Positions 25,901 through 52,391 of a stretch of 64,000 nt of DNA are shown here, in pieces. The notes beneath the pieces were generated by a model that made no database searches, was not told where the DNA came from, and was given only the letters and a program-made list of their open reading frames with translations. The DNA is from Candidatus Endonucleibacter sp. (ex Gigantidas childressi) (GTDB lineage: Bacteria > Pseudomonadota > Gammaproteobacteria > Pseudomonadales > Endozoicomonadaceae). The translations under genes were made by a program, and so were the position numbers. How positions within the stretch are numbered: position 1 is the stretch's first letter; the number at the start of each line of letters is the position of its first letter. The DNA lies in the NCBI GenBank assembly GCA_030674875.1, contig JASXSU010000001.1:944001-1008000 (forward strand), written 5' to 3'.

Positions 25901-28900
25901 CTATTACCTCCTTTGCAGCTGATGCAGCATTGGCATCTCCAGAGTTGTCAGTAGCGATAACATTATATTTCAGGACGATGGTTTGATCTTTACCCAAAAA
26001 GTCAAGATTAGCGCTTGTACTGTAACTCCAACCTGAATTAGAAATAACGAAGCCGCTCATAAGGCTGGCGCTAAGACTGCTAGTAAGATCTCCACCATTC
26101 CACGTGATACTGGTATCAGATTTACTTAGCGTTACAATATCTCCGCTATCCAACTCCGTGAAGAAAAGTGTACCGTCAACACTGAGACTGACAGTACTAT
26201 CACCTTCTGCCAGAGCTCCAGTGCTAGTAATCGAATCAATTACCGGCTGGTCATTAGTGCCTGTAATGGTAACCATTACCTCCTCTATAGCCGACGCAGC
26301 ATTTTCCGATGCAGAGTTATCAGTAGCGATAACATGATATTGCAAGACGATGGTTTGATCTTTACCCAAAAAGTCAAGATTAGCGTTTGTACTGTAACTC
26401 CAACCTGAATTAGAAATAACGAAACCGCTCATAAGGCTGGTGCTAAGACCGCTAGTAAGGCCTCCACCACTCCACGCGATACTGACATCAGACTTACTTA
26501 CCGTTACAGTATCTCCGCTATCCAACTCCGTGAAGCTAAGTATACCGTCAACACTGAGACTGGCAGTACTATCACCTTCTGTCAGAGCTCCAGTGCTAGT
26601 AATCGAATCAATTACCTGCTGGTCATTAGTGCCTGTAATGGTAATTATTACCTCCTTTGCAGCCGATGCAGCATTGGCCGCTCCAGAGTCGTCAGTAGCG
26701 ATAACATTATATTTCAGGACGATGGTTTCATCTTTACTCAAAAAGTCAAGATTAGCGCTTGTATTGTAACTCCAACCTCCATTAGAAATAACGAAGCCGC
26801 TCATAAGGCTGGTGCTAAGACTGCTAGTAAGATCTCCACCATCCCACGTGATACTGGTATCAGATTTACTTACCGTTACAACATCTCCGCTATTCAACTC
26901 CGTGAAGCTAAGTGTACCGTCAACACTGAGACTGGCAGTACTATCACCTTCTGTTAGAGCTCCAGTGCTAGTAATCGAATCAATTACCGGCTGGTCATTA
27001 GTGCCTGTAATGGTAACTATTACCTCCTTTTCAGCCGATGCAGCATTGGCCGCTCCAGAGTTGTCAGTAGCGGTAACATTATATTTCAAGACGATGGTTT
27101 GATCTTTACCCAAAAAGTCAAGATTAGCGCTTGTACTGTAACTCCAACCTGAATTAGAAATAACGAAGCCGCTCATAAGGCTGGTGCTAAGACTGCTAGT
27201 AAGATTTCCACCATTCCACGTGATACTGGTATCAGATTTACTTACCGTTACAATATCTCCGCTATCCAACTCAGTGAAGCTAAGTGTACCGTCAACACTG
27301 AGACTGGCAGTACTATCACTTTCTGTCAGAGCTCCCGTGCTAGTAATCGAATCAATTACCGGCTGGTCATTAGTGCCTGTAATGGTAACTATTACCTCCT
27401 TTGCAGCCGATGCAGCATTGGCCGCTCCAGAGTTGTCAGTAGCGATAACATTATATTTCAAGACGATGGTTTGATCTTTACCCAAAAAGTCAAGATTAGC
27501 GCTTGTACTGTAACTCCAACCTCCATTAGAAATAACGAAGCCGCTCATAAGGCTGGTGCTAAGACTGCTAGTAAGATCTCCACCATTCCACGTGATACTG
27601 GTATCAGATTTACTTACCGTTACAATATCCCCGCTATCCAACTCAGTGAAGCTAAGTGTACCGTCAACACTGAGACTGGCAGTACTATCACCTTCTGTCA
27701 GGGCTCCAGTGCTAGTAATCGAATCAATTACCGGCTGGTCATTAGTGCCTGTAATGGTAACTATTACCTCCTTTGCAGCCGATGCAGCATTGGCCGATCC
27801 AGAGTTGTCAGTAGCGGTAACATTATATTTCAAGACGATGGTTTGATCTTTACCCAAAAAGTCAAGATTAGCGCTTGTACTGTAACTCCAACCTCCATTA
27901 GAAATAACGAAGCCGCTCATAAGGCTGGCGCTAAGACTGCTAGTAAGATCTCCACCACTCCACGTGATACTGGCATCAGATTTACTTACCGTTACAATAT
28001 CTCCGCTATCCAACTCCGTGAAGCTAAGTGTACCGTCAACACTGAGACTCGCAGTACTATCACCTTCTGTTAGAGCTCCCGTGCTAGTAATCGAATCAAT
28101 TACCGGCTGGTCATTAGTGCCTGTAATGGTAACTATTACCTCCTTTGCAGCTGATACAGCATTGGCCGATCCAGAGTTGTCAGTAGCGATAACATTATAT
28201 TTCAAGACGATGGTTTGATCTTTACCCAAAAAGTCAAGATTAGCGCTTGTACTGTAACTCCAACCTCCATTAGAAGTAACGAAGCCGCTCATAAGGCTGG
28301 TGCTAAGACTGCTAGTAAGATCTCCACCACTCCACGTGATACTGGTATCAGATTTACTTACCGTTACAACATCTCCGCTATCCAACTCCGTGAAGCTAAG
28401 TGCACCGTCAACACTGAGACTGGCAGTACTATCACCCTCTGTTATAGCTCCAGTGCTAGTAATCGAATCAATTACCGGCTGGTCATTAGTGCCTGTAATG
28501 GTAACTATTACCTCCTTTGCAGCCGATGCAGCATTGGCCGATCCAGAGTTGTCAGTAGCGATAACATTATATTTCAAGACGATGGTTTGATCTTTACCCA
28601 AAAAGTCAAGATTAGCGCTTGTACTGTAACTCCAACCTCCATTAGAAATAACGAAACCGCTCATAAGGCTGGTGCTAAGACTGCTAGTAAGATCTCCACC
28701 ACTCCACGTGATACTGGCATCAGATTTACTTACCGTTACAATATCTCCGCTATCCAACTCCGTGAAGCTAAGTGTACCGTCAACACTGAGACTGGCAGTA
28801 CTATCACCTTCTGTTAGAGCTCCCGTGCTAGTAATAGAATCAATTACCGGCTGGTCATTAGTGCCTGTAATGGTAACTATTACCTCCTTTGCAGCTGATA

Positions 28901-31900
28901 CAGCATTGGCCGATCCAGAGTTGTCAGTAGCGATAACATTATATTTCAAGACGATGGTTTGATCTTTGCCCAAAAAGTCAAGATTAGCGCTTGTACTGTA
29001 ACTCCAACCTCCATTAGAAGTAACGAAGCCGCTCATAAGGCTGGTGCTAAGACTGCTAGTAAGATCTCCACCACTCCACGTGATACTGGTATCAGATTTA
29101 CTTACCGTTACAACATCTCCGCTATCCAACTCCGTGAAGCTAAGTGTACCGTCAACACTGAGACTGGCAGTACTATCACCTTCTGCCAGAGCTCCAGTGC
29201 TAGTAATCGAATCAATTACCGGCTGGTCATTAGTGCCTGTAATGGTAACTATTACCTCCTTTGCAGCCGATGCAGCATTGGCCGATCCAGAGTTGTCAGT
29301 AGCGATAACATTATATTTCAAGACGATGGTTTGATCTTTACCCAAAAAATCAAGATTAGCGCTTGTACTGTAACTCCAACCTCCATTAGAAATAACGAAG
29401 CCGCTCATAAGGCTGGTGCTAAGACTGCTAGTAAGGTCTCCACCACTCCACGTGATACTGGCATCAGATTTACTTACCGTTACAATATCTCCGCTATCCA
29501 ACTCCGTGAAGGAAAGTGTACCGTCAACACTAAGACTGGCAGTACTATCACCTTCTGTTAGAGCTCCAGTGTTAGTAATCGAATCAATTACCGGCTGGTC
29601 ATTAGTGCCTGTAATGGTAACTATTACCTCCTTTGCAGCTGATACAGCATTGGCCGATCCAGAGTTGTCAGTAGCGATAACATTATATTTCAAGACGATG
29701 GTTTGATCTTTACCCAAAAAGTCAAGATTAGCGCTTGTACTGTAACTCCAACCTCCATTAGAAATAACGAAACCGCTCATAAGGCTGGCGCTAAGACTGC
29801 TAGTAAGATCTCCACCATTCCACGTGATACTGGTATCAGATTTACTTACCGTTACAATATCTCCCCTATCCAACTCCGTGAAGAAAAGTGTACCGTCAAC
29901 ACTGAGACTGGCAGTACTATCACCTTCTGCCAGAGCTCCAGTGCTAGTAATCGAATCAATTACCGGCTGGTCATTAGTGCCTGTAATGGTAACTATTACC
30001 TCCTTTTCAGCCGATGCAGCATTGGCCGCTCCAGAGTTGTCAGTAGCGGTAACATTATATTTCAAGACAATGGTTTGATCTTTACCCAAAAAGTCAAGAT
30101 TAGCGCTTGTACTGTAACTCCAACCTGAATTAGAAATAACGAAGCCGCTCATAAGGCTGGCGCTAAGACTGCTAGTAAGATCTCCACCATGCCACGTGAT
30201 ACTGGTATCAGATTTACTTACCGTTACAATATCTCCGCTATCCAACTCCGTGAAGGAAAGTATACCGTCAACACTGAGACTGGCAGTACTATCACCTTCT
30301 GTTAGAGCTCCAGTGCTAGTAATCGAATCAATTACCGGCTGGTCATTAGTGCCTGTAATGGTAACTATTACCTCCTTTGCAGCCGATGCAGCATTGGCCG
30401 CTCCAGAGTCGTCAGTAGCGATAACATTATATTTCAAGACGATGGTTTGATCTTTACCCAAAAAGTCAAGATTAGCGCTTGTACTGTAACTCCAACCTCC
30501 ATTAGAAGTAACGAAGCCGCTCATAAGGCTGGCGCTAAGACTACTAGTAAGATCTCCACCATTCCACGTGATACTGGTATCAGATTTACTTACCGTTACA
30601 ATATCTCCGCTATCCAACTCCGTGAAGAAAAGTGTACCGTCAACACGGAGACTGGCAGTACTATCACCTTCTGCCAGAGCTCCAGTGCTAGTAATCGAAT
30701 CAATTACCGGCTGGTCATTAGTGCCTGTAATGGTAACTATTACCTCCTTTGCAGCCGATGCAGCATTGGCCGCTCCAGAGTCGTCAGTAGCGATAACATT
30801 ATATTTCAAGACGATGGTTTGGTCTTTACCCAAAAAGTCAAGATTAGCGCTTGTACTGTAACTCCAACCTGAATTAGAAATAACGAAGCCGCTCATAAGG
30901 CTGGCGCTAAGACTGCTAGCAAGATCTCCACCACTCCACGTGATATTGGCATCAGATTTACTTACCGTTACAATATCTCCGCTATCCAACTCCGTGAAGC
31001 TAAGTGTACCGTCAACACTGAGACTGGCAGTACTATCACCTTCTGTTAGAGCTCCAGTGCTAGTAATCGAATCAATTATCGGCTGGTCATTAGTGCCTGT
31101 AATGGTAACTATTACCTCCTTTGCAGCCGATGCCACATTGGCCGCTCCAGAGTCGTCAGTAGCGATAACATTATATTTCAAGACGATGGTTTGATCTTTA
31201 CCCAAAAAGTCAAGATTAGCGCTTGTACTGTAACTCCAACCTGAATTAGAAATAACGAAGCCGCTCATAAGGCTGGTGCTAAGACTGTTAGTAAGATCTC
31301 CACCATTCCACGTGATACTGGTATCAGATTTACTTACCGTTACAATATCTCCGCTATCCAACTCCGTGAAGCTAAGTGTACCGTCAACACTGAGACTGGC
31401 AGTACTATCACCTTCTGTCAGAGCTACAGTGCTAGTAATCGAATCAATTACCGGCTGGTCATTAGTGCCTGTAATGGTAACTATTACCTCTTTTGCAGCC
31501 GATGCAGCATTGGCCGCTCCAGAGTTGTCAGTAGCGATAACATTATATTTCAAGACGATGGTTTGGTCTTTACCCAAAAAATCAAGATTAGCGCTTGTAC
31601 TGTAACTCCAACCTCCATTAGAAATAACGAAGCCGCTCATAAGGCTGGCGCTAAGACTGCTAGTAAGATCTCCACCACTCCACGTGATACTGGTATCAGA
31701 TTTACTTACCGTTACAACATCTCCGCTATCCAACTCAGTGAAGCTAAGTGTACCGTCAACACTGAGACTGGCAGTACTATCACCTTCTGTTAGAGCTCCA
31801 GTGCTAGTAATCGAATCAATTACCGGCTGGTCATTAGTGCCTGTAATGGTAACTATTACTTCCTTTGCAGCTGATACAGCATTGGCCGATCCAGAGTTGT

Positions 31901-33329
31901 CAGTAGCGATAACATTATATTTCAAGACGATGGTTTGATCTTTACCCAAAAAGTCAAGATTAGCGCTTGTACTGTAACTCCAACCTCCATTAGAAATAAC
32001 GAAACCGCTCATAAGGCTAGCGCTAAGACTGCTAGTAAGGTCTCCACCATTCCACGTGATACTGGTATCAGATTTACTTACCGTTACAATATCTCCGCTA
32101 TCCAACTCCGTGAAGCTAAGTGTACCAGTAGTGCTGAGACCTGCAGTGCTATTACTCTCTGCAAGAGTGCCGGATGTGTTAATCAAGTTAATTACTGGCT
32201 GATCGTTAGTTCCCGTGATAGTAATCGATAAAAAACTATTAGATGTTAACCCACCGCTATCAGACATCTGATAACGAATTAATAAATCCATCACTTCGCC
32301 ATCACCGAGATAATCAAAATCAGAGCCAAGAGCAAATAACACCTGATTATTACTAATACTTACCTCTCCCATTCCAACAAGAATATCGCCATTAGTATCA
32401 ACAATATCAGTAGATAACAGAATAGAAGAAGAAGGGTTGTCATTGGAATCAACATCAGTATCATTAGCCAAAACATTTATTATTAATGAACCATTTTCAC
32501 CACTCGTGGCGACATCAGGGTTGGCCACAGGAGCTTCATTAACATCTTCAATATCTATAGTTATTGTTTTAAACGTAGTTAAAGGAGGGATACCATTATC
32601 TGTTACTTTAATGCTTAAGTCGTAACTGGCTATATTTTCGTAATCTATTTCCCCCACCACAGTGATATCACCAGTTGCAGGGTTAATAGCAAAACAGCCA
32701 TCGTTATTACCTCCGACTATCTCATAAATGTGTGACTGAGATTCGTCTAGATCTATTACCTCAACAGACCCTACAGTGAATGAGCCATCACTTAGTACGC
32801 CATCCCTTACAGCGAAGCCTTGACTTTGAATAATTGGAGGGTTGTTAACTGGTATAGCAGGGGAATTATCTATTACATGTTCTTTAGTAAACTGACGTTC
32901 ATCAGCACCCATTCTACTGATTTCATGAAATTCTTCATCCACTTTGTTATCTGATCTCTCAATCAGGCCTTGGCTTATCAGTCGACCTTCTTCAGCTAAC
33001 ACTTTATCCTTATTAGACGAGTCATTATTTGATGAACCATCAACTAACTCATCAATACTACTATCACTCTTTTCTAGCGCAATGACGCTCGCATCATCTA
33101 GATCAGACATTTCCATTAAGAGCTCTTGCTGTAGACCAACAAGGATAGATTTATTGTTAATAAGAATTATTTTTATCGGAAAATCATAGCTATTTAAAAC
33201 AGTATCACCAACAAACACTGGTTCTCCTGCATTAACCATTCTAATCGAGCCATCAACACTGATAACCTTAACAGGTTCAGAGTCTTCTGAGATATGACCA
33301 ATTACGACATAATTACCATTTGGATTCAT
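14886..33329 (-). CDS. Gene B: giant VCBS adhesin, N-terminal 6,147 aa up to a frameshift
   Basis: Starts at ATG 33329-33327 (MNPNGNYVV), with a G-rich GGGGG ribosome-like site 5 bases upstream. Order: N-terminal module (1-80), polar linker, cadherin domain (about 165-275), 'VLANDTD' domain (275-375), 24 type-1 VCBS repeats (376-3352), 6 type-2 VCBS repeats (3352-4114). Then come a cadherin-like domain and Ig-like blocks (AEGVKFNSDIAIPESNDITQI, VSNIPDGxKAFxEGD) alternating with five SPRY-like modules (VFGSNLAVTVTDG, GFIGDxRLSFK, FMLGFSSDNP, NYYH). It ends abruptly at VIREEEL where the second tandem copy reads VIREESFKIDN. The predicted product lacks any type I secretion signal and should not be exported unless the frameshift is corrected, bypassed or a sequencing error. 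The read-through protein would be about 7,267 aa. Only one cysteine is apparent, in the first cadherin domain. Confidence 0.9.
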   Translation of the reverse strand: MNPNGNYVVIGHISEDSEPVKVISVDGSIRMVNAGEPVFVGDTVLNSYDFPIKIILINNKSILVGLQQELLMEMSDLDDASVIALEKSDSSIDELVDGSSNNDSSNKDKVLAEEGRLISQGLIERSDNKVDEEFHEISRMGADERQFTKEHVIDNSPAIPVNNPPIIQSQGFAVRDGVLSDGSFTVGSVEVIDLDESQSHIYEIVGGNNDGCFAINPATGDITVVGEIDYENIASYDLSIKVTDNGIPPLTTFKTITIDIEDVNEAPVANPDVATSGENGSLIINVLANDTDVDSNDNPSSSILLSTDIVDTNGDILVGMGEVSISNNQVLFALGSDFDYLGDGEVMDLLIRYQMSDSGGLTSNSFLSITITGTNDQPVINLINTSGTLAESNSTAGLSTTGTLSFTELDSGDIVTVSKSDTSITWNGGDLTSSLSASLMSGFVISNGGWSYSTSANLDFLGKDQTIVLKYNVIATDNSGSANAVSAAKEVIVTITGTNDQPVIDSITSTGALTEGDSTASLSVDGTLSFTELDSGDVVTVSKSDTSITWSGGDLTSSLSASLMSGFVISNGGWSYSTSANLDFLGKDQTIVLKYNVIATDNSGAANAASAAKEVIVTITGTNDQPVIDSITSTVALTEGDSTASLSVDGTLSFTELDSGDIVTVSKSDTSITWNGGDLTNSLSTSLMSGFVISNSGWSYSTSANLDFLGKDQTIVLKYNVIATDDSGAANVASAAKEVIVTITGTNDQPIIDSITSTGALTEGDSTASLSVDGTLSFTELDSGDIVTVSKSDANITWSGGDLASSLSASLMSGFVISNSGWSYSTSANLDFLGKDQTIVLKYNVIATDDSGAANAASAAKEVIVTITGTNDQPVIDSITSTGALAEGDSTASLRVDGTLFFTELDSGDIVTVSKSDTSITWNGGDLTSSLSASLMSGFVTSNGGWSYSTSANLDFLGKDQTIVLKYNVIATDDSGAANAASAAKEVIVTITGTNDQPVIDSITSTGALTEGDSTASLSVDGILSFTELDSGDIVTVSKSDTSITWHGGDLTSSLSASLMSGFVISNSGWSYSTSANLDFLGKDQTIVLKYNVTATDNSGAANAASAEKEVIVTITGTNDQPVIDSITSTGALAEGDSTASLSVDGTLFFTELDRGDIVTVSKSDTSITWNGGDLTSSLSASLMSGFVISNGGWSYSTSANLDFLGKDQTIVLKYNVIATDNSGSANAVSAAKEVIVTITGTNDQPVIDSITNTGALTEGDSTASLSVDGTLSFTELDSGDIVTVSKSDASITWSGGDLTSSLSTSLMSGFVISNGGWSYSTSANLDFLGKDQTIVLKYNVIATDNSGSANAASAAKEVIVTITGTNDQPVIDSITSTGALAEGDSTASLSVDGTLSFTELDSGDVVTVSKSDTSITWSGGDLTSSLSTSLMSGFVTSNGGWSYSTSANLDFLGKDQTIVLKYNVIATDNSGSANAVSAAKEVIVTITGTNDQPVIDSITSTGALTEGDSTASLSVDGTLSFTELDSGDIVTVSKSDASITWSGGDLTSSLSTSLMSGFVISNGGWSYSTSANLDFLGKDQTIVLKYNVIATDNSGSANAASAAKEVIVTITGTNDQPVIDSITSTGAITEGDSTASLSVDGALSFTELDSGDVVTVSKSDTSITWSGGDLTSSLSTSLMSGFVTSNGGWSYSTSANLDFLGKDQTIVLKYNVIATDNSGSANAVSAAKEVIVTITGTNDQPVIDSITSTGALTEGDSTASLSVDGTLSFTELDSGDIVTVSKSDASITWSGGDLTSSLSASLMSGFVISNGGWSYSTSANLDFLGKDQTIVLKYNVTATDNSGSANAASAAKEVIVTITGTNDQPVIDSITSTGALTEGDSTASLSVDGTLSFTELDSGDIVTVSKSDTSITWNGGDLTSSLSTSLMSGFVISNGGWSYSTSANLDFLGKDQTIVLKYNVIATDNSGAANAASAAKEVIVTITGTNDQPVIDSITSTGALTESDSTASLSVDGTLSFTELDSGDIVTVSKSDTSITWNGGNLTSSLSTSLMSGFVISNSGWSYSTSANLDFLGKDQTIVLKYNVTATDNSGAANAASAEKEVIVTITGTNDQPVIDSITSTGALTEGDSTASLSVDGTLSFTELNSGDVVTVSKSDTSITWDGGDLTSSLSTSLMSGFVISNGGWSYNTSANLDFLSKDETIVLKYNVIATDDSGAANAASAAKEVIITITGTNDQQVIDSITSTGALTEGDSTASLSVDGILSFTELDSGDTVTVSKSDVSIAWSGGGLTSGLSTSLMSGFVISNSGWSYSTNANLDFLGKDQTIVLQYHVIATDNSASENAASAIEEVMVTITGTNDQPVIDSITSTGALAEGDSTVSLSVDGTLFFTELDSGDIVTLSKSDTSITWNGGDLTSSLSASLMSGFVISNSGWSYSTSANLDFLGKDQTIVLKYNVIATDNSGDANAASAAKEVIVTITGTNDQPVIDSITSAGALTEGDSTASLSVDGTLFFTELDSGDIVTVSKSDSSITWNGGDLTSSLSTSLMSGFVISNGGWSYSTSANLDFLGKDQTIVLKYNVIATDDSGAANAASAAKEVIVTITGTNDQPVIDSITSTGALTEGDSTASLSVDGTLSFTELDSGDVVTVSKSDTSITWSDGDLTSSLSTSLMSGFVTSNGGWSYSTSANLDFLGKDQTIVLKYNVIATDNSGSANAVSAAKEVIVTITGTNDQPVIDSITSTGALTEGDSTASLSVDGTLSFTELDSGDIVTVSKSDANITWSGGDLTSSLSTSLMSGFVISNSGWSYSTSANLDFLGKDQTIVLKYNVIATDDSGSANAASAAKEVIVTITGTNDQPVIDSITSTGALTEGDSTASLSVDGTLSFTELDSGDVVTVSKSDTSITWSGGDLTSSLSTSLMSGFVTSNGGWSYSTSANLDFLGKDQTIVLKYNVIATDDSGAGNAVSAAKEVIVTITGTNDQPVIDSITSTGALTEGDSTASLSVDGTLFFTELDSEDIVTVSKSDASITWSGGDLTSSLSTSLMSGFVISNSGWSYSTSANLDFLGKDQTIVLKYNVIATDDSGSANAASAAKEVIVTITGTNDQPVIDSITSTGALTEGDSTASLSVDGTLSFTELDSGDVVTVSKSDTSITWSGGDLTSSFGTSLMSGFVTSNGGWSYSTSANLDFLGKDQTIVLKYNVIATDDSGAANAASAAKEVIVTITGTNDQPVIDSITSTGALTEGDSTASLSVDGTLSFTELDSGDIVTVSKSDTSITWNGGDLTSSLSTSLMSGFVISNSGWSYSTSANLDFLGKDQTIVLKYNVTATDNSGAANAESVEKEVTIVITGTNDQPVIDSITQTGALTEGDGAVSLATTGLLSFTELDSGDVVTISEVNTDTVLSDGTFANLEASLKTALIDGFSVTSGGWSYSTDANLDFLRAGQTITLKYNVTATDNSGAANAESVEKEVTIVITGTNDQTVIDSITPTGALTEGDGAVSLATTGLLSFTELDSGDVVTISEVNTDTVLSDGIFANLDTSLKTALIDGFSVTNDGWSYSTDANLDFLRGGQTITLKYKVLATDNSEAANAESVEKEVTIVITGTNDQPVIDSITPTGALTVGDGAASIATTGLLSFTELDSGDVVTISEVNTDTVLSDGTFANLDTSLKTALIDGFSVTSGGWSYSTDANLDFLRAGQTITLKYKVLATDNSEAANAESVEKEVTIVITGTNGQPVIDSITPTGALTEGDGAASLATTGLLSFTELDSGDVVTISEVNTDTVLSDGTFANLDTSLKTALIDGFSVTSGGWSYSTDANLDFLRAGQTITLKYNVTATDNSGAANAESAEKEVTIVITGTNDQPVIDSITPTGALTEGDGAASLATTGLLSFTELDSGDVVTISEVNTDTVLSDGTFANLDTSLKTALIDGFSVTNDGWSYSTDANLDFLRAGQTITLKYEVLATDNSEAANAESVEKEVTIVITGTNDQPVIDSITPTGALTEGDGAASLATTGLLSFTELDSGDVVTISEVNTDTVLSDGIFANLDTSLKTALIDGFSVTNDGWSYSTDANLDFLGKDQTITLKYKVVATDNSGAANAESVEKEVTIVITGTNDAPVASVNDTISTSTRAVIDALATVYDVDDNKEDLTIDSATIVDGDGNSVMGSGVVNIVDNRLIFNPGNDFSHLGINETEQVTIRYKVLDDSGASDISTIVITVKQFRKIISKSELAAGSLFDGDIDAPVSEDITQIKMVFSGDGLNTSNDKVVLGADISLSSTIATTSVDSSFAVAGLSYSYDSGTKTLIITKSDGAAISGSDIETIIESIRLKNTDSEANEGERAITISYIDEAGNEGVSATAIITVSGLGIVGIRVSGLPDGEGVFGEGDVITLTLTVDQVLTLGGGAGGTVMIAGKAFALDSSASASAGNNKLVFTYTVADGDVISEENFKIDNPSTDVSLIDISSANGTAVVFSNETPKFFLSKEIVFGSNLAVMVTDGTKGKTLESTGASNWGSSGVFSDEGFVGDARLGFKMADETSAFMLGFSSDNPNHHYNSIDYALYVSNTTAQIYNSGSLLYIYPDDVAAGDEFIVERNGTDINYYHIGSATGAVTLLYTTSNVDITTRLFVDSSLRDSGSKVVDVNLVVESDFAVFVSKEMVFGSNLAVTVTDGTNGKNLESTGSTAWGNSGVFSDEGFIGDARLSFKLADVTSRFMLGFSSDNPNHDYATVEYALYISNAGIQIYTDGSNDAASSVVAEAGDEFIVERHGTDINYYHISSATGAVTLIHTTSNVDMTTRLFVDSAFHSNGSKVVDVNLVVASKVIVDTIAPEAVDLSASNGVQSTSLNGAGRTLLAEGVKFNSDIAIPESNDITQIKIVFAGDSLDTSNDKVVLGADISLNATIATTSVDNSFAVAGLSYSYDEGTKTLIITKTDGKVIYGSDIETIVESIELKNTHSDANEGERTVEISYLDGGGNESVSAIATIMVGPSIINMVVSNIPDGRKAFIEGDVITLTLTVDKVLTLGGGAEGTVMIGGKTFALDSSASAAAGNNKLVFTYTVADGDIISEENFKIDNPSTDVSLIDISSANGNAVVSNNETPKLFLHREMVFGSNLAVTVTDGTNGKTLESTGSDAWGNSGVFSDEGFIGDGRLSFKLADVTSRFMLGFSSDNPNHSYTTMEYAIYISNTSIQIYTDNSNDAQSSVVAEAGDEFIVERHGTDINYYHISSATGAVTLIHTTSNVDITTRLFMDSAFHSNGSKVVDVNLVAESDSAAFVSKEMVFGSNLAVTVTDGTNGKTLESTGSDGWGNSGVFADEGFIGDARLSFKLADVTSRFMSGFSSDNPNHDYDTIEYALYISHTGIQIYTDGSHDAASSIVAEAGDEFIVERHGTDINYYHISSATGAVTLIHTTSNVDITTRLFADSAFHANGSKVVDVNLVVASKVAVDTIVPEAVDLSASDGVQATSLNGGDRALLAEGVKFNSDIAMPESNDITQIKIVFAGDSLDTSNDKVVLGVGISLNATIATTSVDNSFAVAGLSYSYDAGTKTLIITKTDGTVISGSDIETTVESIELKNTHSDANEGERTVEISYLDGAGNESVSAIATIMVGPGIIDVVVSNIPDGQKAFIEGDIITLTLTVGQALTLGGAADGTVMIAGKAFALDASASTAAGNNKLVFTYTVADGDVIREESFKIDNPNKDVSLTNVSSSANGNAVVFNNETPDLLSIRDMTYSDYAGINVSDGVGGKTFEKTATSVWGNAGVFSDEGFVGDGYLSFKSTNTTTAFMLGFSVDDSSDSYNTIDYALYVNGTGIHVYQSGSWDGKYDNFVAEYPDLINVSGDTYKVERDGTNINYYHTSRSTGAVTLFFTKTGVSATSELFIDGAFLSSGAKAEGVHFVSKNTFAVDAVAPDAVDLSVSDGVQATSLNGGDRALLAEGVKFNSDIAIPESNDITQIKIVFAGDSLDTSNDKVVLGADISLNATIATTSVDNSFAVAGLSYSYDAGTKTLIITKTDGTVISGSDIETIVESIELKNTHSDANEGERTVEISYLDGGGNESVSAIATIMVGPGIIDVVVSNIPDGQKAFIEGDIITLTLTVGQALTLGGAADGTVMIAGKAFALDASASTAAGNNKLVFTYTVADGDVIREEEL
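14894..14895 (-). other. One-base insertion that breaks gene B
   Basis: On the plus strand this position reads 'gctcctcttctc'; the otherwise matching tandem copy at 16266 reads 'gctctcttctc'. The extra C (G on the coding strand) changes REESF to REEEL-stop. The context is a purine-only tract on the coding strand, a plausible place for replication slippage or for an assembly or sequencing error. Confidence 0.88.
20989..23275 (-). repeat. Type-2 VCBS array of gene B: 6 units of 381 bp
   Basis: Six in-frame 127-aa units (6 x 381 = 2,286) differ from the type-1 repeats by the segment VVTISEVNTDTVLSDGTFANLDTSLKTAL in place of VTVSKSDTSITWNGGDL, and by FLRAGQTI or FLGKDQTI before LKY. They share the FTELDSGD and ITGTNDQPVIDSIT ends with type 1. 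Confidence 0.95.
23273..32201 (-). repeat. Type-1 VCBS array of gene B: 24 units of 372 bp
   Basis: The span of 8,928 bp equals 24 x 372 exactly and the translated repeat motif counts to 24. Units differ at a few diagnostic sites (SGG/NGG, DIV/DVV, FVIS/FVTS, NSGSANA/DSGAANA). Those states recur in pairs over part of the array, giving a 744-bp higher-order period, clearest around 26800-30100 and in units 19-23. Confidence 0.95.
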
Positions 33330-33569
33330 GGAGCCCCCACTATATAAAAAATTTATTTATAACCACCCCTAGCAGCGTGAGGTTATTGGTCACTATCACC
33401 TTCAACGACAATAGGTACAGATGTGTGTTTTTTGTATTTTCAGAACAGCCTCTTGATAATGTCGGCCGAACCAGTGATTTTATTACAATGCGGATTCAAA
33501 TCTGTATTTCGTCTACTACGCTAACAAAGGACACAGTATTCACAGTATTTAATTTATTCGAGTACGACT
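33330..33569. promoter_or_regulatory. Leader region of gene B
   Basis: This sequence upstream of B is nearly the same as 46251-46489 upstream of C and homologous to the leaders of D and E. It contains two copies of the 9-bp unit 'cacagtatt' (33531-33548). I see no pair of -35/-10 boxes with good spacing, so the region is called only by position and conservation among the paralogues. Confidence 0.4.
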
Positions 33570-34767
33570 GGATAATATAATAAGTGCAATTGACTGAAAT
33601 TTTATAGGTGAGCCAGCTGCCGTATATTTGTAGCTCTCACACTAAAAATGGAAGCCAAGAATGAGCACTCAAACTAGGCAATACAAGCAGCGGACTCAAG
33701 GGCAACGGTATCAGATTGAGGCTCTTCTTAGAACAAACTACATGCAGAAAGAAATCGCAGTGTCAGTAGGTATCAGTGAGAGTGCTTTATCACGAGAATT
33801 GAGTCGTAATGCCAATGATGATGGCTACGGTGCTGAAAGCGCCCACGTACTAGCCAGTCAGCGTAGAGTAAAAGCGACAAAGTTCAGCAAAACAGATAAA
33901 CGACACATGACCATAATAAAGAAAGGGCTATTGCTTGGTTGGTCTCCTGAAAATATCAGTTTCAGGATGTCGGGCACTTCCACCTTCATCGCACTCAGCC
34001 ACACCACTGCTTATAAACGTGTTGCTACTAACAAAGTGCTAGGAGGCTCTTTGTATAAGAATCTACCCAGCTTTGGCAAGAGGCGCTGCAAAGGTGGTAA
34101 GCGTAAGGCTGGGCGTATCACGATCCCAGACCGCGTCGATATATCCTATCTGCCCGCAGTTGTTGATCTGCGGTCTCGTCTAGGCGATAGGGAGGGTGAT
34201 ACGATTTATGGACAGGACGCCCATCTGGTGACCCTTGTAGACCGAAAGAGTCGGTTAACTTTAATAGGGAAAGTTGATACAAAACACGCCGAAGTTGTTG
34301 CTGAAAGTATGATAAAGCTTCTGAAGCGGGTGTCATCGGTCTGCACAGTCACCCTAGATAATGGTGGTGAGTTTGCAGCCCATGAGAAGGTAGCAAAAGC
34401 AATGAATGCAGATATCTACTTTGCCAAGCCTTATGCTAGTTATCAGCGGGGAACTAACGAAAATACCAATGGCATCATTCGGAGAACCTGGCCTAAAAAA
34501 ATGGCGTTGAGCCATCTGACAGAAGACGATATGAGGGCAATGGAAATATTGATCAATACCATGCCCAGGAAGGCCTTATACCCAAAGGATTTCAAGTTGC
34601 TACTAGCCGACAAGTAAGCGAAGCCCCATGAGCCTACCAGTAGTAGGTGATCGGGGTGTGAGCGAGCGCAGCCAACAACGTATCAGATTGAAAGGCGACA
34701 GGTATAGGAGGGTGGACACCACTCGAAGTCTACACAGGACAGCCGATTGCACTTATTGCTTGAATCC
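33570..34767 (+). mobile_element. IS30-family insertion sequence, copy 1
   Basis: A 1,198-bp element is bounded by imperfect terminal inverted repeats at 33570-33596 and 34740-34767. The shared core is 'aataagtgcaat' on the left, with its reverse complement on the right. It holds a single transposase gene. I see no clear target duplication next to the repeats. The right end lies 14 bp from the stop codon of gene C, so the transposase and C are convergent. Confidence 0.85.
33661..34617 (+). CDS. IS30-family transposase, copy 1 (carries a micro-inversion)
   Basis: 318 aa, full length for the family. An N-terminal helix-turn-helix region (about residues 10-55, QRYQIEALL, VGISESALSRELSRN) should bind the terminal repeats. 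The DDE catalytic residues are visible as D180 (GDREGDTIYG), D233 (VTLDNGGEF) and E267 (QRGTNENTNG). The start ATG has a GGAAG ribosome site about 9 bases upstream. Compared with copy 2, residues 104-109 read SGTSTF instead of KVEVPD, because 25 bp (33966-33990) are inverted. The family normally has an acidic/proline stretch before SHxTxY here, so copy 2 looks ancestral and copy 1 altered. The reading frame survives; activity is uncertain. Confidence 0.93.
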   Translation: MSTQTRQYKQRTQGQRYQIEALLRTNYMQKEIAVSVGISESALSRELSRNANDDGYGAESAHVLASQRRVKATKFSKTDKRHMTIIKKGLLLGWSPENISFRMSGTSTFIALSHTTAYKRVATNKVLGGSLYKNLPSFGKRRCKGGKRKAGRITIPDRVDISYLPAVVDLRSRLGDREGDTIYGQDAHLVTLVDRKSRLTLIGKVDTKHAEVVAESMIKLLKRVSSVCTVTLDNGGEFAAHEKVAKAMNADIYFAKPYASYQRGTNENTNGIIRRTWPKKMALSHLTEDDMRAMEILINTMPRKALYPKDFKLLLADK

Positions 34768-34781
34768 AGCATTGTGGGAAT

Positions 34782-37700
34782 CTAAGAATCTATTTGTAAA
34801 TTTCCGTCATCTAGCAATTTATTAATAATTTCAGCGTCTGTATTACCATAAGCTGAAAGATCAACATTATCTAACGTAACCTGCCTAGTTACATCACCAC
34901 CTGCAACATCTCTAACATTAACGACAGTATTATTGGCACTTACAGAAAAATCTAGCAACTGATCAAGACTGTTGTCTTCATTAATAATAAGATCATCCAG
35001 CAAGAGCACATCTCCTTCATCAATGTTAAAATCAGATATAGCAAAGTTAGCGATACTCCCGGAAGATACACTTGTATTAAAATCAAAGGTATCTGCGCCA
35101 TCACCACCAAATATCGAAACATCATTATGATTAATGCTAAATAAATCGGAGCCGACACTACCGTTTAATACTTCTGAATCTTCTGTTGTGTTATAATTGT
35201 AACCAACAACAAAATGATTAGTAATATTCCCCGCCAAGTTACCAATATCATCCTGTACAGTAGATCCATTATAACCCACCATAACATCCTCACCTCCTTC
35301 TATAACTGAACCATCAAACTTAACAATTACTTTAGAGTTTTCCACTTCAACGCTTGTTACTGTGCGACTATAGTCATCTACTTTAATAGTGAACTCACTT
35401 ATATCAAGCGGAATATTAGCTAGCTCTTTAGAGTAATTAAGTGTCACCTTGTTTTCGTGATACTCTTTGCCAAAAACCTCAATCTCACGGAAGTTTTGAT
35501 TATCTCCACTAAAGGTAAGTTTAACTTGGTCAAACACAATATTGTTTGCTGGAGTATATTCATAAATATCATCATTATCATTTTCTGCGCCAGCGATAGT
35601 GTGACTTACAACCACTTCACCGTCTTTTAAAAACTCCAGGACTGAGCCATTAATTCTGTCTTCTAGCCCACCATTTACACGATTATGTATTCTAAAAACA
35701 CCCTGACTATAATCCACATTCTTAAAATCTATAAGAAAATATTTACCATCAGCATTTGTTGGATGGACTTGATAATCATCAACTAAAGTTGTATTGATAT
35801 TAGCGTCAAAAGCTCTACTTATATCCAGCTTACTACCATCAACATGATAAGTCATACCAGGAGCAGAGTAAGTTGCTAAATCATTACTTGCTAAGGCAAT
35901 ATTTATCAACGGCCCTTGTATATCAACCAAATGTGACTCCAATACAGGTGAAGCTTCGTCATTTGTCAATAAATCAACAGCATCAGGCGCCACTGCATCA
36001 ACAGCAACCTTAGATGCCACTACTAAATTTACATCAACTACTTTAGCACCATTTGAATAAAAGGCCGAGTCCACAAATAATCTGGTTGTAATATCCACGT
36101 TACTTGTAGTGTGTATTAGGGTTACAGCACCTGTAGCACTACTAATGTGATAATAATTAATATCCGTTCCATGACGCTCAACTATGAACTCATCACCAGC
36201 TTCAGAAGCGACTGAGCCATGAGCATCATGGGAACCATCAATGAATATGCCTATACTAGTACCGCTTATATATAGAGCATACTCGACGGTAGTATAGTCA
36301 TGGTTTGGATTATCACTAGAAAAACCTAACAAAAATATAGAGGTAACATCAGCCAGCTTAAAACTAAGCCTGGCATCACCAATAAATCCTTCATCTGAAA
36401 ACACACCAGAATTATTCCAAGCAATTGACCCTGTACTTTCAAGGTTCTTACCGTTTGTACCATCTGAAACCGTTACAGCAAGGTTGCTGCCAAATACCAA
36501 CTCTTTGGAAACGAATACATCAAAATCAGATTCCACTACTAAATTAACATCAACTATTTTAGCACCATTTGAATAAAAGGCCGAGTCCACAAATAATCTG
36601 GTTGTAATATCCACGTTACTTGTAGTGTGTATTAGGGTTACAGCACCTGTGGCACTACTAATGTGATAATAGTTAATATCCGTTCCATTACGCTCAACTA
36701 TGAACTCATCACCAGCTTCAGAAACGACTGAGCTAACAGCATCCCTGGAACCATCAGTGTATATTTGTATACCAGTAGAGATTATATGTAGAGCATACTC
36801 GACGGTAGCATAGTTATGGTCTGGATTATCACTAGAAAAACCTAACATAAAGTTATAGGTAACATCAGTCAGCTTAAAACTAAGCCTGGCATCACCAATA
36901 AACCCTTCATCTGAAAACACACCAGAATTACCCCAAGCAGTTGACCCTGTACTTTCAAGGTTCTTACCGTTTGTACCATCTGTAACCGTTACAGCAAGGT
37001 TGCTGCCAAATACCATTTCTTTGGGAAGAAAGAATTTCGGTATTTCATTACCAAATACCACTGCATTTCCGTTTGCGCTACTAATATCGATCAAACTTAC
37101 ATCCGTACTTGGGTTGTCTATTTTAAAGTTTTCTTCACTAATTATATCCCCATCTGCCACCGTGTAGGTAAACACTAGTTTATTATCACCTGCTGCCGCT
37201 GAAGCACTTGAATCCAAGGCAAATGTTTTTCCTCCAATCATCACCGTTCCTTCAGCACCACCACCCAGGGTTAATGCCTGATCCACAGTTAAAGTAAGAG
37301 TAATGACATCTCCTTCAATGAATGCTTTTCGCCCGTCAGGGATATTACTAACAACCATATTAATAATGCTTGGGCCAACCATAATAGTTGCTATTGCTGA
37401 GACGCTTTCATTACCTACCCCATCAAGGTAACTAATCTCTACTGTTCTCTCTCCTTCATTAGCATCTGAATGTGTGTTTTTTAGTTCAATTGATTCAACA
37501 ATGGTTTCAATATCACTTCCAGAAATAACCGTTCCATCGGTTTTTGTAATTATTAAAGTTTTGGTGCCAGCATCATAACTGTAACTCAAACCCGCCACCG
37601 CAAAAGAGTTATCAACACTAGTTGTAGCAATTGTAGCGTTTAAAGAAATATCCGCACCCAATACAACTTTATCATTACTAGTATCTAAACTATCTCCTGC

Positions 37701-40700
37701 GAACACTATTTTAATTTGAGTTATGTCATTTGATTCCGGTATAGCAATATCTGAATTAAATTTCACACCTTCTGCCAGCAAAGTCCTGCCTGCACCATTT
37801 AAGCTCGTAGCTTGGACACCGTCAGATACAGATAAATCAACAGCATCAGGCGCCACTGCATCAACAGCAAAAGTATTTTTACTTACGACATGCACACCCT
37901 CAGGTTTAGCACCTAAAGAATAAAAGGATCCTTCTATAAATAGTTCACTTGTAGCGCTTACGCCTGTTTGAGTGAAGAATAATGTGACAACACCCGTAGA
38001 TCTACTAGTGTGATAATAGTTAATATTCGTTCCATCACGCTCCACTTTGTACGTATCACCAATTTCATTAATCAAGTCTGGATATTCCGCAATAAAGTCG
38101 CTATATTTCCCATCCCAGCTATCTGATTGGTATACGTGAATTGTGGTAGCATTCACGTACAGAGCATAATCAATAGTATTATCACTATCGCTTGAAGCAC
38201 CTACAGAAAAACCCAACATAAATGCCGATGTTGTATCCGTTGTTTTAAAGCTTAGATAACCATCACCAACGAATCCTTCATCTGAAAACACACCAGCATT
38301 ACCCCAACCATTGGCTGCCGTCTTTTCAAAAGTCTTGCCTCCTACACCATCTGAGACACTCATACCAGCGTAGTCGCTATATGTCATATCCCTAATACCT
38401 AATAAGTCTGGTGTTTCGTTATTAAATACCACTGCATTTCCGTTAGCGCTACTACTGACATTAGTCAAACTTACATCCGTACTTGGGTTGTCTATTTTAG
38501 AGTTTTCTTCACTAATTATATCCCCATCTGCCACCGTGTAGGTAAACACTAGTTTATTATCACCTGCTGCGGCTGAAGCACTTGAATCCAAGGCAAATGT
38601 TTTTCCTCCAATCATCACCGTTCCTTCAGCACCACCACCCAGGGTTAATGCCTGATCCACAGTTAAAGTAAGAGTAATGACATCTCCTTCAATGAATGCT
38701 TTTCGCCCGTCAGGGATATTACTAACAACCACATTAATAATGCTTGGGCCAACCATAATAGTTGCTATTGCTGAGACGCTCTCATTACCTACCCCATCAA
38801 GGTAACTAATCTCTACTGTTCTCTCTCCTTCATTAGCATCTGAATGTGTATTTTTTAGTTCAATTGATTCAACAATGGTTTCAATATCACTTCCAGAAAT
38901 AACCTTTCCATCGGTTTTTGTAATTATTAAAGTTTTGGTGCCAGCATCATAACTGTAACTCAAACCCGCCACCGCAAAAGAGTTATCAACACTAGTTGTA
39001 GCAATTGTAGCGTTTAAAGAAATATCCGCACCCAATACAACTTTATCATTACTAGTATCTAAACTATCTCCTGCGAACACTATTTTAATTTGAGTTATGT
39101 CATTTGATTCCGGTATAGCAATATCTGAATTAAATTTCACACCTTCTGCCAACAAAGTCCTGCCTGCACCATTTAAGCTCGTAGCTTGGACACCGTTAGA
39201 TACAGATAAATCAACAGCATCAGGCGCCACTGCATCAACAGCAACCTTAGATGCCACTACTAAATTTACATCAACTACTTTAGAACCATTTGAATAAAAG
39301 GCCGAGTCCACAAATAATCTGATTGTAATATCCACGTTACTTGTAGTGTGTATTAGGGTTACAGCACCTGTGGCACTACTAATGTGATAATAGTTAATAT
39401 CCATTCCATTACGCTCAACTATGAACTCATCACCTACTGCAAGATCGTCTGGGTAAGTATAAAGAATGGAACCACTATTATATATTCGGGCAGTAGTATG
39501 GCTGACATATACAGCATAATCTATGCTATCATAAGAATGGTTTGGATTATCACTAGAAAAACCTAACATAAAGTCATCGGTAACACCAGTCATCTTAAAA
39601 CTAAGCCTGCCATCACCAATAAACCCTTCATCTGAAAACACACCAGAATTACCCCAAGCAGTTGACCCTGTACTTTCAAGGTTCTTACCGTTTGTACCAT
39701 CTGTAACCGTTACAGCAAGGTTGCTGCCAAATACCATCTCTTTGGAAACGAATGCAGCAGAATCAGATTCAGCTACTAAATTAACATCTACTACTTTAGA
39801 GCCATTTGAATGAAAGGCCGAGTCCACAAATAATCTGGTTGTAATATCCACGTTACTTGTAGTGTGTATTAGGGTTACAGCACCTGTAGCACTACTAATG
39901 TGATAATAATTAATATCCGTTCCATGACGCTCAACTATGAACTCATCACCAGCTTCAGCAACGACTGAGCTCTGAGCATCATTGGAATTATCAGTGTATA
40001 TTTGTATACCCGTATTGCTTATATATATAGCATACTCCATGGTAGTATAGCTATGGTTTGGATTATCACTAGAAAAGCCCAACATAAATCTAGAGGTAAC
40101 ATCAGCCAGCTTAAAACTAAGCCTGCCATCACCAATAAACCCTTCATCTGAAAACACACCAGAATTACCCCAAGCATCTGACCCTGTGCTTTCAAGAGTC
40201 TTACCGTTTGTACCATCTGTAACCGTTACAGCAAGGTTGCTGCCAAATACCATTTCTCTGTGAAGAAATAATTTCGGTGTTTCATTATTAGATACCACTG
40301 CATTTCCGTTTGCGCTACTAATATCGATCAAACTTACATCCGTACCTGGGTTGTCTATTTTAAAGTTTTCTTCACTAATTATATCCCCATCTGCCACAGT
40401 GTAGGTAAACACTAATTTATTATTACCTGCTGCGGCTGAAGCACTTGAATCCAAGGCAAATGTTTTTCCTGCAATCATCACCGTTCCTTCAGCACCACCA
40501 CCCAGGGTTAATACCTGATCCACAGTTAAAGTAAGAGTAATGACATCTCCTTCAATGAATGCTTTTCGCCCGTCAGGGATATTACTAACAACCACATTAA
40601 TAATGCTTGGGCCAACCATAATAGTTGCTATTGCTGAGACGCTCTCATTGCCTCCCCCATCAAGGTAACTAATCTCTACTGTTCTCTCTCCTTCATTAGC

Positions 40701-43700
40701 ATCTGAATGTGTATTTTTTAGTTCAATTGATTCAACAATGGTTTCAATATCACTTCCATAAATGACCTTTCCATCGGTTTTTGTAATTATTAAAGTTTTG
40801 GTGCCCGCATCATAACTGTAACTCAAACCCGCCACCGCAAAAGAGTTATCAACACTAGTTGTAGCAATTGTAGCGTTTAAAGAAATATCCGCACCCAATA
40901 CAACTTTATCATTACTAGTATCTAAACTATCTCCTGCGAACACTATTTTAATTTGAGTTATGTCATTTGATTCCGGTATAGCAATATCTGAATTAAATTT
41001 CACACCTTCTGCCAACAAAGTCCTGCCTGCACCATTTAAGCTCGTAGCTTGGACACCGTCAGATACAGATAAATCAACAGCATCAGGCGCCACTGTATCA
41101 ACAGCAACCTTAGATGCCAATACTAAATTTACATCAACTACTTTAGAACCGTTTAAATAAAAGGCCGAGTCCACAAATAATCTGGTTGTCATATCCACGT
41201 TACTTGTAGTGTGTATTAGGGTTACAGCACCTGTGGCACTACTAATGTGATAATAGTTAATATCCGCTCCATGACGCTCAACTATGAACTCATCACCAGC
41301 TTCAGCAACGACTGAGCTAGCACCATCACTGGAACCATCATTGTATGCTTGTATACCACCAGTATCGCTTATATATATAGCATACTCGACGGTAGCATAG
41401 TCATGGTTTGGATTATCACTAGAAAAACCTAACATAAATGTAGAGGTAACATCAGTCAGCTTAAAACCAAGCCTGGCATCACCAATAAATCCTTCATCTG
41501 AAAACACACCAGAATTATCCCAACCATCTGACCCTGTGCTTTCAAGGTTCTTACCGTTTGTACCATCTGTAACCGTTACAGCAAGGTTGCTGCCAAATAC
41601 CATCTCTTTGGAAACGAATACAGCAAAATCAGATTCCACTACTAAATTAACATCAACTACTTTCGAACCACTGTCACGCAAGGATGAGTCCACAAATAAT
41701 CTGGTTGTAATATCCACATTACTTGTGGTGTATAATAATGTTAAAGCACCTGTAGCACTACTAATGTGATAATAGTTAATATCCGTTCCATTACGCTCAA
41801 CTATGAACTCATCACCTGCTGCAACATCGTCTGGGTAACTATAAAGAAGGGAACCACTATTATATATTTGGGCAGTAGTATTGCTGACATATAAAGCATA
41901 ATCTATGCTATTATAATGATGGTTTGTATTATCACTGGAAAAACCTAGCATAAATGCAGAGGTCTCATCGGCCATTTTAAAACCAAGCTTGGCATCACCA
42001 ACAAACCCTTCATCTGAAAACACACCAGAACTACCCCAATTACTTTCCCCTGTGCTTTCAAGAGTCTTACCTTTTGTACCATCTGTAACCGTTACAGCAA
42101 GGTTGCTGCCAAACACAATCTCTTTGGAAAGAAAGAATTTCGGTGTTTCATTACTAAATACCACTGCAGTTCCGTTTGCGCTACTAATATCGATCAAACT
42201 TACATCCGTACTTGGGTTGTCTATTTTAAAGTTTTCTTCACTAATTACATCCCCATCTGCCACCGTGTAGGTAAACACTAGTTTATTATTACCTGCTGCG
42301 GCTGAAGCACTTGAATCCAAGGCAAATGCTTTTCCTCCAATCATCACCGTTCCTTCAGCACCACCACCCAGGGTTAATACCTGATTCACAGTTAAAGTAA
42401 GAGTAACGACATCTCCTTCACCAAAGACGCCCTCCCCATCAGGTAGACCACTCACACGTATACCAACAATGCCAAGTCCTGACACCGTAATTATTGCAGT
42501 TGCGGATACGCCTTCATTACCTGCCTCATCAATGTAACTAATCGTTATTGCTCTCTCGCCTTCATTAGCCTCTGAATCTGTATTTTTCAGCCTTATTGAT
42601 TCAATAATAGTTTCAATATCGCTTCCAGAAATAGCCGCTCCATCGCTTTTGGTAATTATCAAAGTTTTGGTGCCAGAATCATAACTGTAACTCAAACCAG
42701 CCACTGAAAACGAACTGTCAACACTAGTTGTAGCAATTGTAGAACTTAAAGAAATATCCGCACCCAATACAACCTTGTCATTACTAGTATTTAAACCATC
42801 GCCTGCAAATACCATTTTAATTTGGGTGATATCTTCGCTTACGGGTGCATCAATATCACCATCAAAAAGCGATCCTGCTGCCAACTCACTTTTAGAAATA
42901 ATTTTCCTGAATTGCTTCACGGTAATAACTATCGTAGAAATATCGCTAGCTCCGCTATCGTCCAACACTTTATAGCGAATAGTTACCTGTTCCGTTCCAT
43001 TTATTCCCAAATGTGAAAAATCATTTCCAGGATTAAATATCAACCTATTATCAACTATATTAACCACACCTGACCCCATAACACTGTTGCCATCACCATC
43101 AACAATTGTCGCTGAATCAAGAGTAAGATCTTCTTTATTATCATCCACATCATAAACCGTGGCTAATGCGTCTATAACCACCCCAGTAAAAGTAGATATA
43201 GTATCATTCACTGACGCAACTGGTGCATCATTGGTGCCAGTAATGACAATTGTCACCTCTTTTTCCACCGACTCGGCATTGGCCGCTCCAGAGTTGTCGG
43301 TAGCGGTAACATTATATTTCAGAGTGATGGTCTGATCTTTCCCCAGAAAATCAAGGTTAGCATCAGTGCTGTAGCTCCAGCCTCCACTGGTTACAGAGAA
43401 GCCGTCAATTAGGGCTGTTTTAAGGCTGGTATCTAGATTCGCAAAGGTTCCGTCACTCAAGACAGTATCGGTATTAACTTCACTGATCGTAACAACGTCT
43501 CCACTATCCAGTTCTGTGAAGGAAAGTAGGCCGGTGGTCGCAAGACTAGCTGCGCCATCACCCTCAGTAAGAGCTCCAGTGCCAGTAATAGAATCAATTA
43601 CCGGCTGGTCATTAGTGCCTGTAATGGTAACTATTACCTCCTTTCCAGCCGACGCAGCATTGGCCGCTCCAGAGTCGTCAGTGGCGGTAACATTATATTT

Positions 43701-46250: not shown

Positions 46251-46489
46251 GGAGCCCCCACTATATAAAAATTTATTTATAACCACCCCTAGCAGCGTGA
46301 GGTTATTGGTCACTATCACCTTCAACGACAATAGGTACAGATGTGTGTTTTTTGTATTTTCAGAACAGCCTCTTTATAATGTCGGCCGAACCAGTGATTT
46401 TATTACAATGCGGATTCAAATCTGTATTTCGCCTACTACGCTAACAAAGGACACAGTATTCACAGTATTTAATTTATTCGAGTACGGCT
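46251..46489. promoter_or_regulatory. Leader region of gene C
   Basis: Almost identical to the leader of B (33330-33569), including two copies of the 9-bp 'cacagtatt' unit (46452-46469). It ends at the left inverted repeat of IS30 copy 2. No convincing promoter boxes. Confidence 0.4.
46255..46259 (-). promoter_or_regulatory. Ribosome site that sets the start of gene C
   Basis: On the coding strand, GGGGG lies 4 bases before the ATG at 46250. The same arrangement precedes B. It supports MNSNGNYVV as the N-terminus rather than the upstream TTG. Confidence 0.5.
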
Positions 46490-47689
46490 GGATTAATATA
46501 ATAAGTGCAATTGACTGAAATTTTATAGGTGAGCCAGCTGCCGGTATATTTGTAGCTCTCACACTAAAAATGGAAGCCAAGAATGAGCACTCAAACTAGG
46601 CAATACAAGCAGCTGACTCAAGGGCAACGGTATCAGATTGAGGCTCTTCTTAGAACAGACTACATACAGAAAGAAGTCGCAGTGTCAGTAGGTATCAGTG
46701 AGAGTGCTTTATCACGAGAGTTGAGTCGTAATGCCAATGATGATGGCTACGGTGCTGAAAGCGCCCACGTACTAGCCAGTCAGCGTAGAGTAAAAGCGAC
46801 AAAGTTCAGCAAAACAGATAAACGACACATGACCATAATAAAGAAAGGGCTATTGCTTGGTTGGTCTCCTGAAAATATCAGTTTCAGGATGAAGGTGGAA
46901 GTGCCCGACATCGCACTCAGCCACACCACTGCTTATAAACGTGTTGCTACTAACAAAGTGCTAGGAGGCTCTTTGTATAAGAATCTACCCCGCTTTGGCA
47001 AGAGGCGCTGCAAAGGTGGTAAGCGTAAGGCTGGGCGTATCACGATCCCAGACCGCGTCGATATATCCTATCTGCCCGCAGTTGTTGATCTGCGGTCTCG
47101 TCTAGGCGATAGGGAGGGTGATACGATTTATGGACAGGGCGCCTATCTGGTGACCCTTGTAGACCGAAAGAGTCTGTTAACTTTAATAGGGAAAGTTGAT
47201 ACAAAACACGCCGAAGTTGTTGCTGAAAGTATGATAAAGCTTCTGAAGCGGGTGTCATCGGTCTGCACAGTCACCCTAGATAATGGTGGTGAGTTTGCAG
47301 CCCATGAGAAGGTAGCAAAAGCAATGAATGCAGATATCTACTTTGCCAAGCCTTATGCTAGTTATCAGCGGGGAGCTAACGAAAATACCAATGGCATCAT
47401 TCGGAGAACCTGGCCTAAAAAAATGGCGTTGAGCCATCTGACAGAAGACGATATGAGGGCAATGAAAATATTGATCAATACCATGCCCAGGAAGGCCTTA
47501 TACCCAAAGGATTTCAAGTTGCTACTAGCCGACAAGTAAGCGAAGCCCCATGAGCCTACCAGTAGTAGGTGCTCGGGGTGTGAGCGAGCGCAGCCAACAA
47601 CGTAGCAGATTGAAAGGCGACAGGTATAGGAGGGTGGACACCACTCGAAGTCTACGCAGGGCAGCCGATTGCACTTATTACTTGAATCC
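46490..47689 (+). mobile_element. IS30-family insertion sequence, copy 2
   Basis: 1,200 bp with 28-bp imperfect terminal inverted repeats at 46490-46517 and 47662-47689 and one transposase gene. Its position relative to neighbours is the same as copy 1: it follows the same leader sequence and ends 14 bp from the stop of D. Both copies replace the same ~236 bp that is present between D and E (about 52678-52913). Confidence 0.87.
46583..47539 (+). CDS. IS30-family transposase, copy 2
   Basis: 318 aa and nearly identical to copy 1, with the same helix-turn-helix region and DDE residues (D180, D233, E267). Residues 104-109 read KVEVPD, the form closer to other IS30-family proteins (an acidic, proline-containing stretch ahead of SHTTAY). 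It differs from copy 1 by a small number of substitutions (for example D26 for N26, V32 for I32, G186/Y188 for D186/H188). It appears intact and is the more likely of the two to be active. Confidence 0.94.
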   Translation: MSTQTRQYKQLTQGQRYQIEALLRTDYIQKEVAVSVGISESALSRELSRNANDDGYGAESAHVLASQRRVKATKFSKTDKRHMTIIKKGLLLGWSPENISFRMKVEVPDIALSHTTAYKRVATNKVLGGSLYKNLPRFGKRRCKGGKRKAGRITIPDRVDISYLPAVVDLRSRLGDREGDTIYGQGAYLVTLVDRKSLLTLIGKVDTKHAEVVAESMIKLLKRVSSVCTVTLDNGGEFAAHEKVAKAMNADIYFAKPYASYQRGANENTNGIIRRTWPKKMALSHLTEDDMRAMKILINTMPRKALYPKDFKLLLADK

Positions 47690-47703
47690 AGCATTGTGGG
47701 AAT

Positions 47704-52380: not shown

Positions 52381-52384
52381 AGAG

Positions 52385-52391
52385 CCCCTTC
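52385..52391 (-). promoter_or_regulatory. Ribosome site that sets the start of gene D
   Basis: GAAGGGG lies 4 bases before the ATG at 52380 on the coding strand. It makes the upstream TTG unlikely. Confidence 0.6.

Follow-up and report, generated by a model that had tools for sequence, protein, structure and literature searches.

One of two closely similar copies of an IS30-family transposase gene in Candidatus Endonucleibacter sp. (ex Gigantidas childressi) carries a microinversion, a short in-frame segment that reads as the exact reverse complement of the same segment in the other copy. Comparison with sibling copies and relatives identifies the copy-2 orientation as ancestral and the inversion in copy 1 as a single derived event, which is a known kind of mutation and is unique among the copies that we scored. 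We propose, with a probability of about 0.72, that copy 1 underwent one microinversion once the locus had been duplicated, most likely through a two-step template switch at a 4-bp inverted repeat. Coordinates refer to the window, the whole 64,000-nucleotide stretch of DNA that was analysed.

The genome comprises 3,679,278 bases in 12 contigs, in which a search for rRNA gave no match, and the window holds two copies of the element, both on the plus strand:

33567..34770, plus strand: IS copy 1, approximate extent, with imperfect terminal inverted repeats of ~30 bp
33661..34617, plus strand: IS30-family transposase gene of copy 1, 318 aa (NCBIfam NF033563, 232.2 bits, cut-off 80)
46487..47692, plus strand: IS copy 2, approximate extent, with imperfect terminal inverted repeats of ~30 bp
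46583..47539, plus strand: IS30-family transposase gene of copy 2, 318 aa (NCBIfam NF033563, 229.6 bits, cut-off 80)

Both transposases also match the Pfam families rve and HTH_38, below Pfam's own cut-offs. Residues D180, D233 and E267, which we take to be the DDE catalytic triad of this transposase, are invariant across 23 aligned transposase proteins. IS30-family elements are expected to be flanked by a short direct target repeat; inspection of the IS flanks by eye found no consistent one. An open frame of at least 295 codons from the expected start is present in seven of 40 aligned IS copies of this genome, both window copies included. Two 3′ forms were observed among these copies (L001 to L040): some match the whole 957-bp gene within an IS of ~1,203–1,205 bases, and many match only as far as about base 913 and resume close to the right end in an IS of ~1,076 bases, which looks like the outcome of an internal deletion of ~127 bp. 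Three copies (L006, L013 and L015) have identical flanking letters on both sides, suggesting that their insertion site was duplicated together with the IS and that they do not represent independent insertions.

Within the window, both IS copies occupy gaps between three consecutive, very large open reading frames of highly repeated units on the minus strand (14886–33329, 6147 aa; 34782–46331, 3849 aa; 47704–52410, 1568 aa). The 1568-aa frame has matches to bacterial Ig, cadherin-like, laminin-G-like and CshA-repeat domains.

The inverted segment and its parts are as follows:

33966..33990, plus strand: derived inverted 25-bp unit of copy 1 (4-bp arm, 17-bp core, 4-bp arm), the exact reverse complement of 46888–46912
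33966..33969, plus strand: left inverted-repeat arm of copy 1, GATG, 4 bp, read from the sequence
33970..33986, plus strand: minimal 17-bp inverted core of copy 1
33987..33990, plus strand: right inverted-repeat arm of copy 1, CATC, 4 bp, read from the sequence
46888..46912, plus strand: the same 25-bp unit of copy 2, in the ancestral orientation

The earlier note had described the two 25-bp units as exact reverse complements, and indeed they agree letter for letter (25/25). A minus-strand self-comparison of the whole window, with E values up to 10, returned six rows forming three reciprocal pairs; the top pair is this segment (25/25, E = 4.5e-5), and the next pair has an E value of 0.28. The arms form a perfect 4-bp inverted repeat directly at both edges of the core. 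Since they are complementary to each other, they read alike after a flip, and the minimal event is therefore 17 bp: the 25-bp extent and the gatg and catc bounds given in the earlier note hold as a description of the match, but the arms themselves are unchanged. The event also sits inside the gene, not 'between' the two transposase genes as had been worded there.

Compared directly, the cores at 33970–33986 and 46892–46908 are mismatched at 13 of 17 positions, and at none once one of them is reverse-complemented. The remaining IS sequence differs at 16 of 1178 aligned nucleotides, so the difference in the core is beyond chance. Length is preserved and the segment is in place, and the core matches the reverse complement of the ancestral core at every position (17/17, or 25/25 with the arms). 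Residues 104–109 read SGTSTF in copy 1 and KVEVPD in copy 2, with the frame kept, in agreement with the earlier reading, and no stop created. Trial 17-nt inversions along the gene produced a stop in 228 of 931 cases, so that a reading frame remaining open is not remarkable in itself. We also considered whether the six differing residues could stem from individual point mutations or from gene conversion with a different IS lineage as donor. We found no support for either and reject both as having a negligible chance of being correct: the core is a perfect reverse complement, and the exact inverted 17-mer, in the reading direction of copy 1, occurs in only one of the 40 aligned copies.

When the segment is masked, copies 1 and 2 group as sister copies (support 1.000). 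Their similarity extends past both ends of the IS, from 33077 to 34874, with 92–100 matches per 100 columns except in the block bearing the inversion, which has 89. This shows that the IS was in place before the stretch was duplicated, and that the flip came later, on the branch leading to copy 1.

The direction of the change was read from the other copies of the element. The 40-copy set derives from 43 genome matches, after two pieces of one copy had been merged and two matches dropped, namely an additional 3′ fragment and the inverted segment matching itself. The segment was readable in all 40, with copy 1 inverted and the other 39 not; in two non-inverted copies (L033 and L038) it is partly deleted. 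A genome-wide pattern scan allowing up to three mismatches found 44 sites, seven of them beyond the 40-copy set, and all seven have the ancestral orientation. Altogether, the inverted orientation was found in one of 47 own-genome copies with a readable segment and the non-inverted orientation in 46, a count that covers copies retaining the segment and lying within the divergence reached by the scan.

Loci in other genomes point the same way. In two scans, the segment was covered by 24 of 29 and 26 of 31 loci; the 31 were found by scanning genomes with a transposase from a relative of the same genus, and the most similar named loci among them lie in Endozoicomonas, Kistimonas and an uncultured Oceanospirillales, so that the host probably belongs to the Endozoicomonadaceae. 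Orientation was scored in relatives with at least 60% protein identity, because this stretch is too variable in the others, and all eight such loci covering the segment (L042, L043, L044, L045, L046, L049, L083 and L098) have copy-2-like residues. Three further loci (L078, L079 and L080) appear to be repeats of L042, L044 and L046 and were counted once. A scan of genome contigs with copy 2 as query confirmed no relative, the matches listed in a plasmid search were all below 60% identity, and exact-pattern scans of viral contigs gave no match in either orientation, which is uninformative on orientation elsewhere. Scoring the orientation in other copies, the check proposed in the earlier note, thus bore its reading out: with 46 of 47 own-genome copies and 8 of 8 close relatives non-inverted, copy 2 is ancestral and copy 1 represents one derived event. 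All 13 core differences are derived in copy 1. Elsewhere in the IS the two copies show 18 differences, including two single-base gaps; six are derived in copy 1, ten are derived in copy 2 and two are left unassigned.

Apart from the segment, 11 positions distinguish the two 957-bp genes. Of these 11 coding differences, 10 are nonsynonymous, against 8.0 expected in the absence of selection (P = 0.15 for a count at least this high). Constraint is therefore not detectable, with 11 differences being few. Residues 104–109 lie in a region of the protein alignment that varies in length and has no invariant column. Redundancy among the copies, together with the lack of detectable constraint, probably explains why the inversion persists: the element is among dozens of IS copies, most of which have decayed.

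We noticed a further feature of the two window proteins beside the invariant D180. In the GDWEGD stretch, both have R (AGG) at position 177 (34189–34191 and 47111–47113), a position occupied by W in the remaining 21 of the 23 aligned proteins. Among the own-genome copies readable at this position, R177 is found in 5 of 23, three of them outside the window, and two of these three (L005 and L008) have a long open frame. R177 as a mark of decay is weakened by this sharing, and it is no clear sign of it.

An in-frame inversion inside a bacterial gene resembles the intragenic members of the bacterial invertons, which have recombinase-sized inverted sites. An active switch of this kind, in which a recombinase would alternate two forms of the transposase, would be in keeping with a segment that is in frame, free of stops and formally reversible. 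Unlike invertons, however, the segment has no recombinase-sized inverted sites, its arms being merely 4 bp, and the 47 scored copies give no sign of two states, with 46 in a single orientation. The gene pair is also without detectable constraint. It has moreover been argued that segments shorter than 33 bp are unable to form the loop required for site-specific recombination (PMC8755829). An active switch is thus unsupported, and we regard it as very improbable.

To place the event among the other repeats, in-place inversions were scanned for in two sets of sequences. Among the window repeats, including the repeat-rich 14886–52410, two settings recovered only the known event, as three and two nested rows depending on the threshold, and reverse-only and complement-only controls gave no rows. 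Among the 40 aligned IS copies, the scan returned three nested reverse-complement column ranges, all at the known segment and with copy 1 in each pair; the controls gave three reverse rows and one complement row, all weak, of 8–16 nt. No second in-place inversion was found in the 40 aligned copies or in 14886–52410. These results also bear on whether the inversion is an artefact of assembly, polishing or library preparation, such as a fold-back chimera in the copy-1 consensus. A genome in 12 contigs with dozens of similar copies is the kind in which such errors could arise, but the inversion is base-exact, confined to one copy and surrounded by ordinary sequence on both sides, and nothing like it recurs in either set. 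We conclude that the inversion is real in the assembled sequence and that an artefact is unlikely.

Branch lengths in the tree of the 40 copies sum to 2.15 substitutions per site, or ~2,600 substitutions over ~1,200 sites, probably an overestimate owing to fragmentary rows. At rates of ~2e-13 microinversions and 1e-8 substitutions per nucleotide per generation, as given in PMC8755829, ~0.05 microinversions would be expected over this tree. We claim no excess, since the window was chosen because the event had been seen in it.

Two template switches would account for a product that is exact, keeps its length and has matching 4-nt inverted repeats on either side. In this model, a growing strand ending in GATG would leave its template and pair with CATC on either the sister strand or the opposite parental one, copying there in the wrong direction through 17 nt and the other arm. 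The new CATC end would then re-pair with the original template, so that the spacer of the inverted repeat ends up exactly inverted in place. The earlier note had offered a template switch at a short hairpin, or else a local flip of the strand; the exactness of the product and the 4-nt repeats at its edges support that suggestion at the level of a proposed mechanism. Against this route, 4 nt is short for two polymerase jumps, a point made for arms of 3–4 nt in PMC8755829. Break repair would yield the identical product while tolerating arms of 3–4 nt: if both strands broke inside the 17-bp segment, one arm, once resected, would invade the wrong arm of the sister copy, copy across and re-anneal (microhomology-mediated break-induced synthesis). 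Such repair has been proposed for short-arm microinversions, and is preferred where arms are 3–4 nt, in the same paper. The product fits both routes equally, and the hairpin described below leans mildly towards replication stalling; we consider break repair a lesser possibility, and template switching the likelier source of the inversion.

Comparable events have been described in other organisms. As reported in PMC8755829 (2022), 59 human/chimpanzee microinversions of 17–33 nt are all flanked by inverted repeats of 3–75 nt, at or near their edges; the repeats are 4–7 nt long in 28 cases, and 45 of the 59 inversions are exact. The 17-nt core and 4-nt arms seen here fall within that pattern, although those cases are from mammalian genomes, whereas ours lies in a bacterial IS gene and is polarised by 46 sibling copies. 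In yeast, too, spacers of inverted repeats within coding sequence have been found inverted, with a change of residues, and a two-switch intermolecular model explains them. As described in PMC8604942, they were seen only with arms longer than 9 bp, which also weighs against the template-switch route for our short arms, and comprise spacer changes of 2–5 bp affecting up to two residues, as against 4-bp arms, a 17-bp spacer and six residues here. Small hairpin-associated inversions in chloroplasts share a short length (5–50 bp) and inverted-repeat boundaries with our case, but have arms of 11–24 bp and flip-flop orientations (PMC12928735, citing Kim and Lee 2005), a recurrence that was not seen among our scored copies. 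Among the matches listed from the open-licence literature, none dealt specifically with microinversions in bacterial genomes, which is no proof of absence.

A hairpin abuts the left edge of the unit and may stall the polymerase, a role that we assign to it tentatively:

46868..46888, plus strand: perfect hairpin with a 7-bp stem and 7-nt loop, whose last base is the first of the unit in copy 2; the same letters occur in copy 1 at 33946–33966

This CCTGAAA-loop-TTTCAGG structure is the sole perfect hairpin with a stem of at least 7 and a loop of 3–8 within the copy-2 IS. Such a hairpin abuts 134 of 63920 25-mers in the window (0.2%), and 4-bp inverted repeats surround a 17-nt spacer at 310 of 63920 positions (0.5%). 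Folding of 65 nt of single strand gave z scores of −2.79 (bottom strand) and −1.47 (top strand) for the ancestral sequence, and of −0.22 and −0.37 after the inversion. Both the adjacency and the folding are post hoc observations of modest weight. The half motif TTTCAGG is present in 7 of 47 copies, and the complete stem in three of those seven; one of the three copies with a perfect hairpin is inverted, compared with none of the 44 without (P = 0.064). With only three perfect hairpins among 47 copies, and one of them inverted, an effect of the hairpin on inversion is not demonstrated. As a long shot, the one-base change completing CCTGAAA/TTTCAGG might make the site a mutational hotspot, and microinversions at 4-nt homology might recur at such sites and recode proteins in repeat families of bacteria more commonly than has been appreciated.

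The inversion in this transposase gene indicates no new system. It provides a clean, polarised case of an in-frame microinversion in a bacterium, whose direction and uniqueness are plain because 46 sibling copies in one genome act as outgroups. It also carries a caution for reading such sequences, in that amino-acid changes packed closely together can reflect one mutation and not selection.
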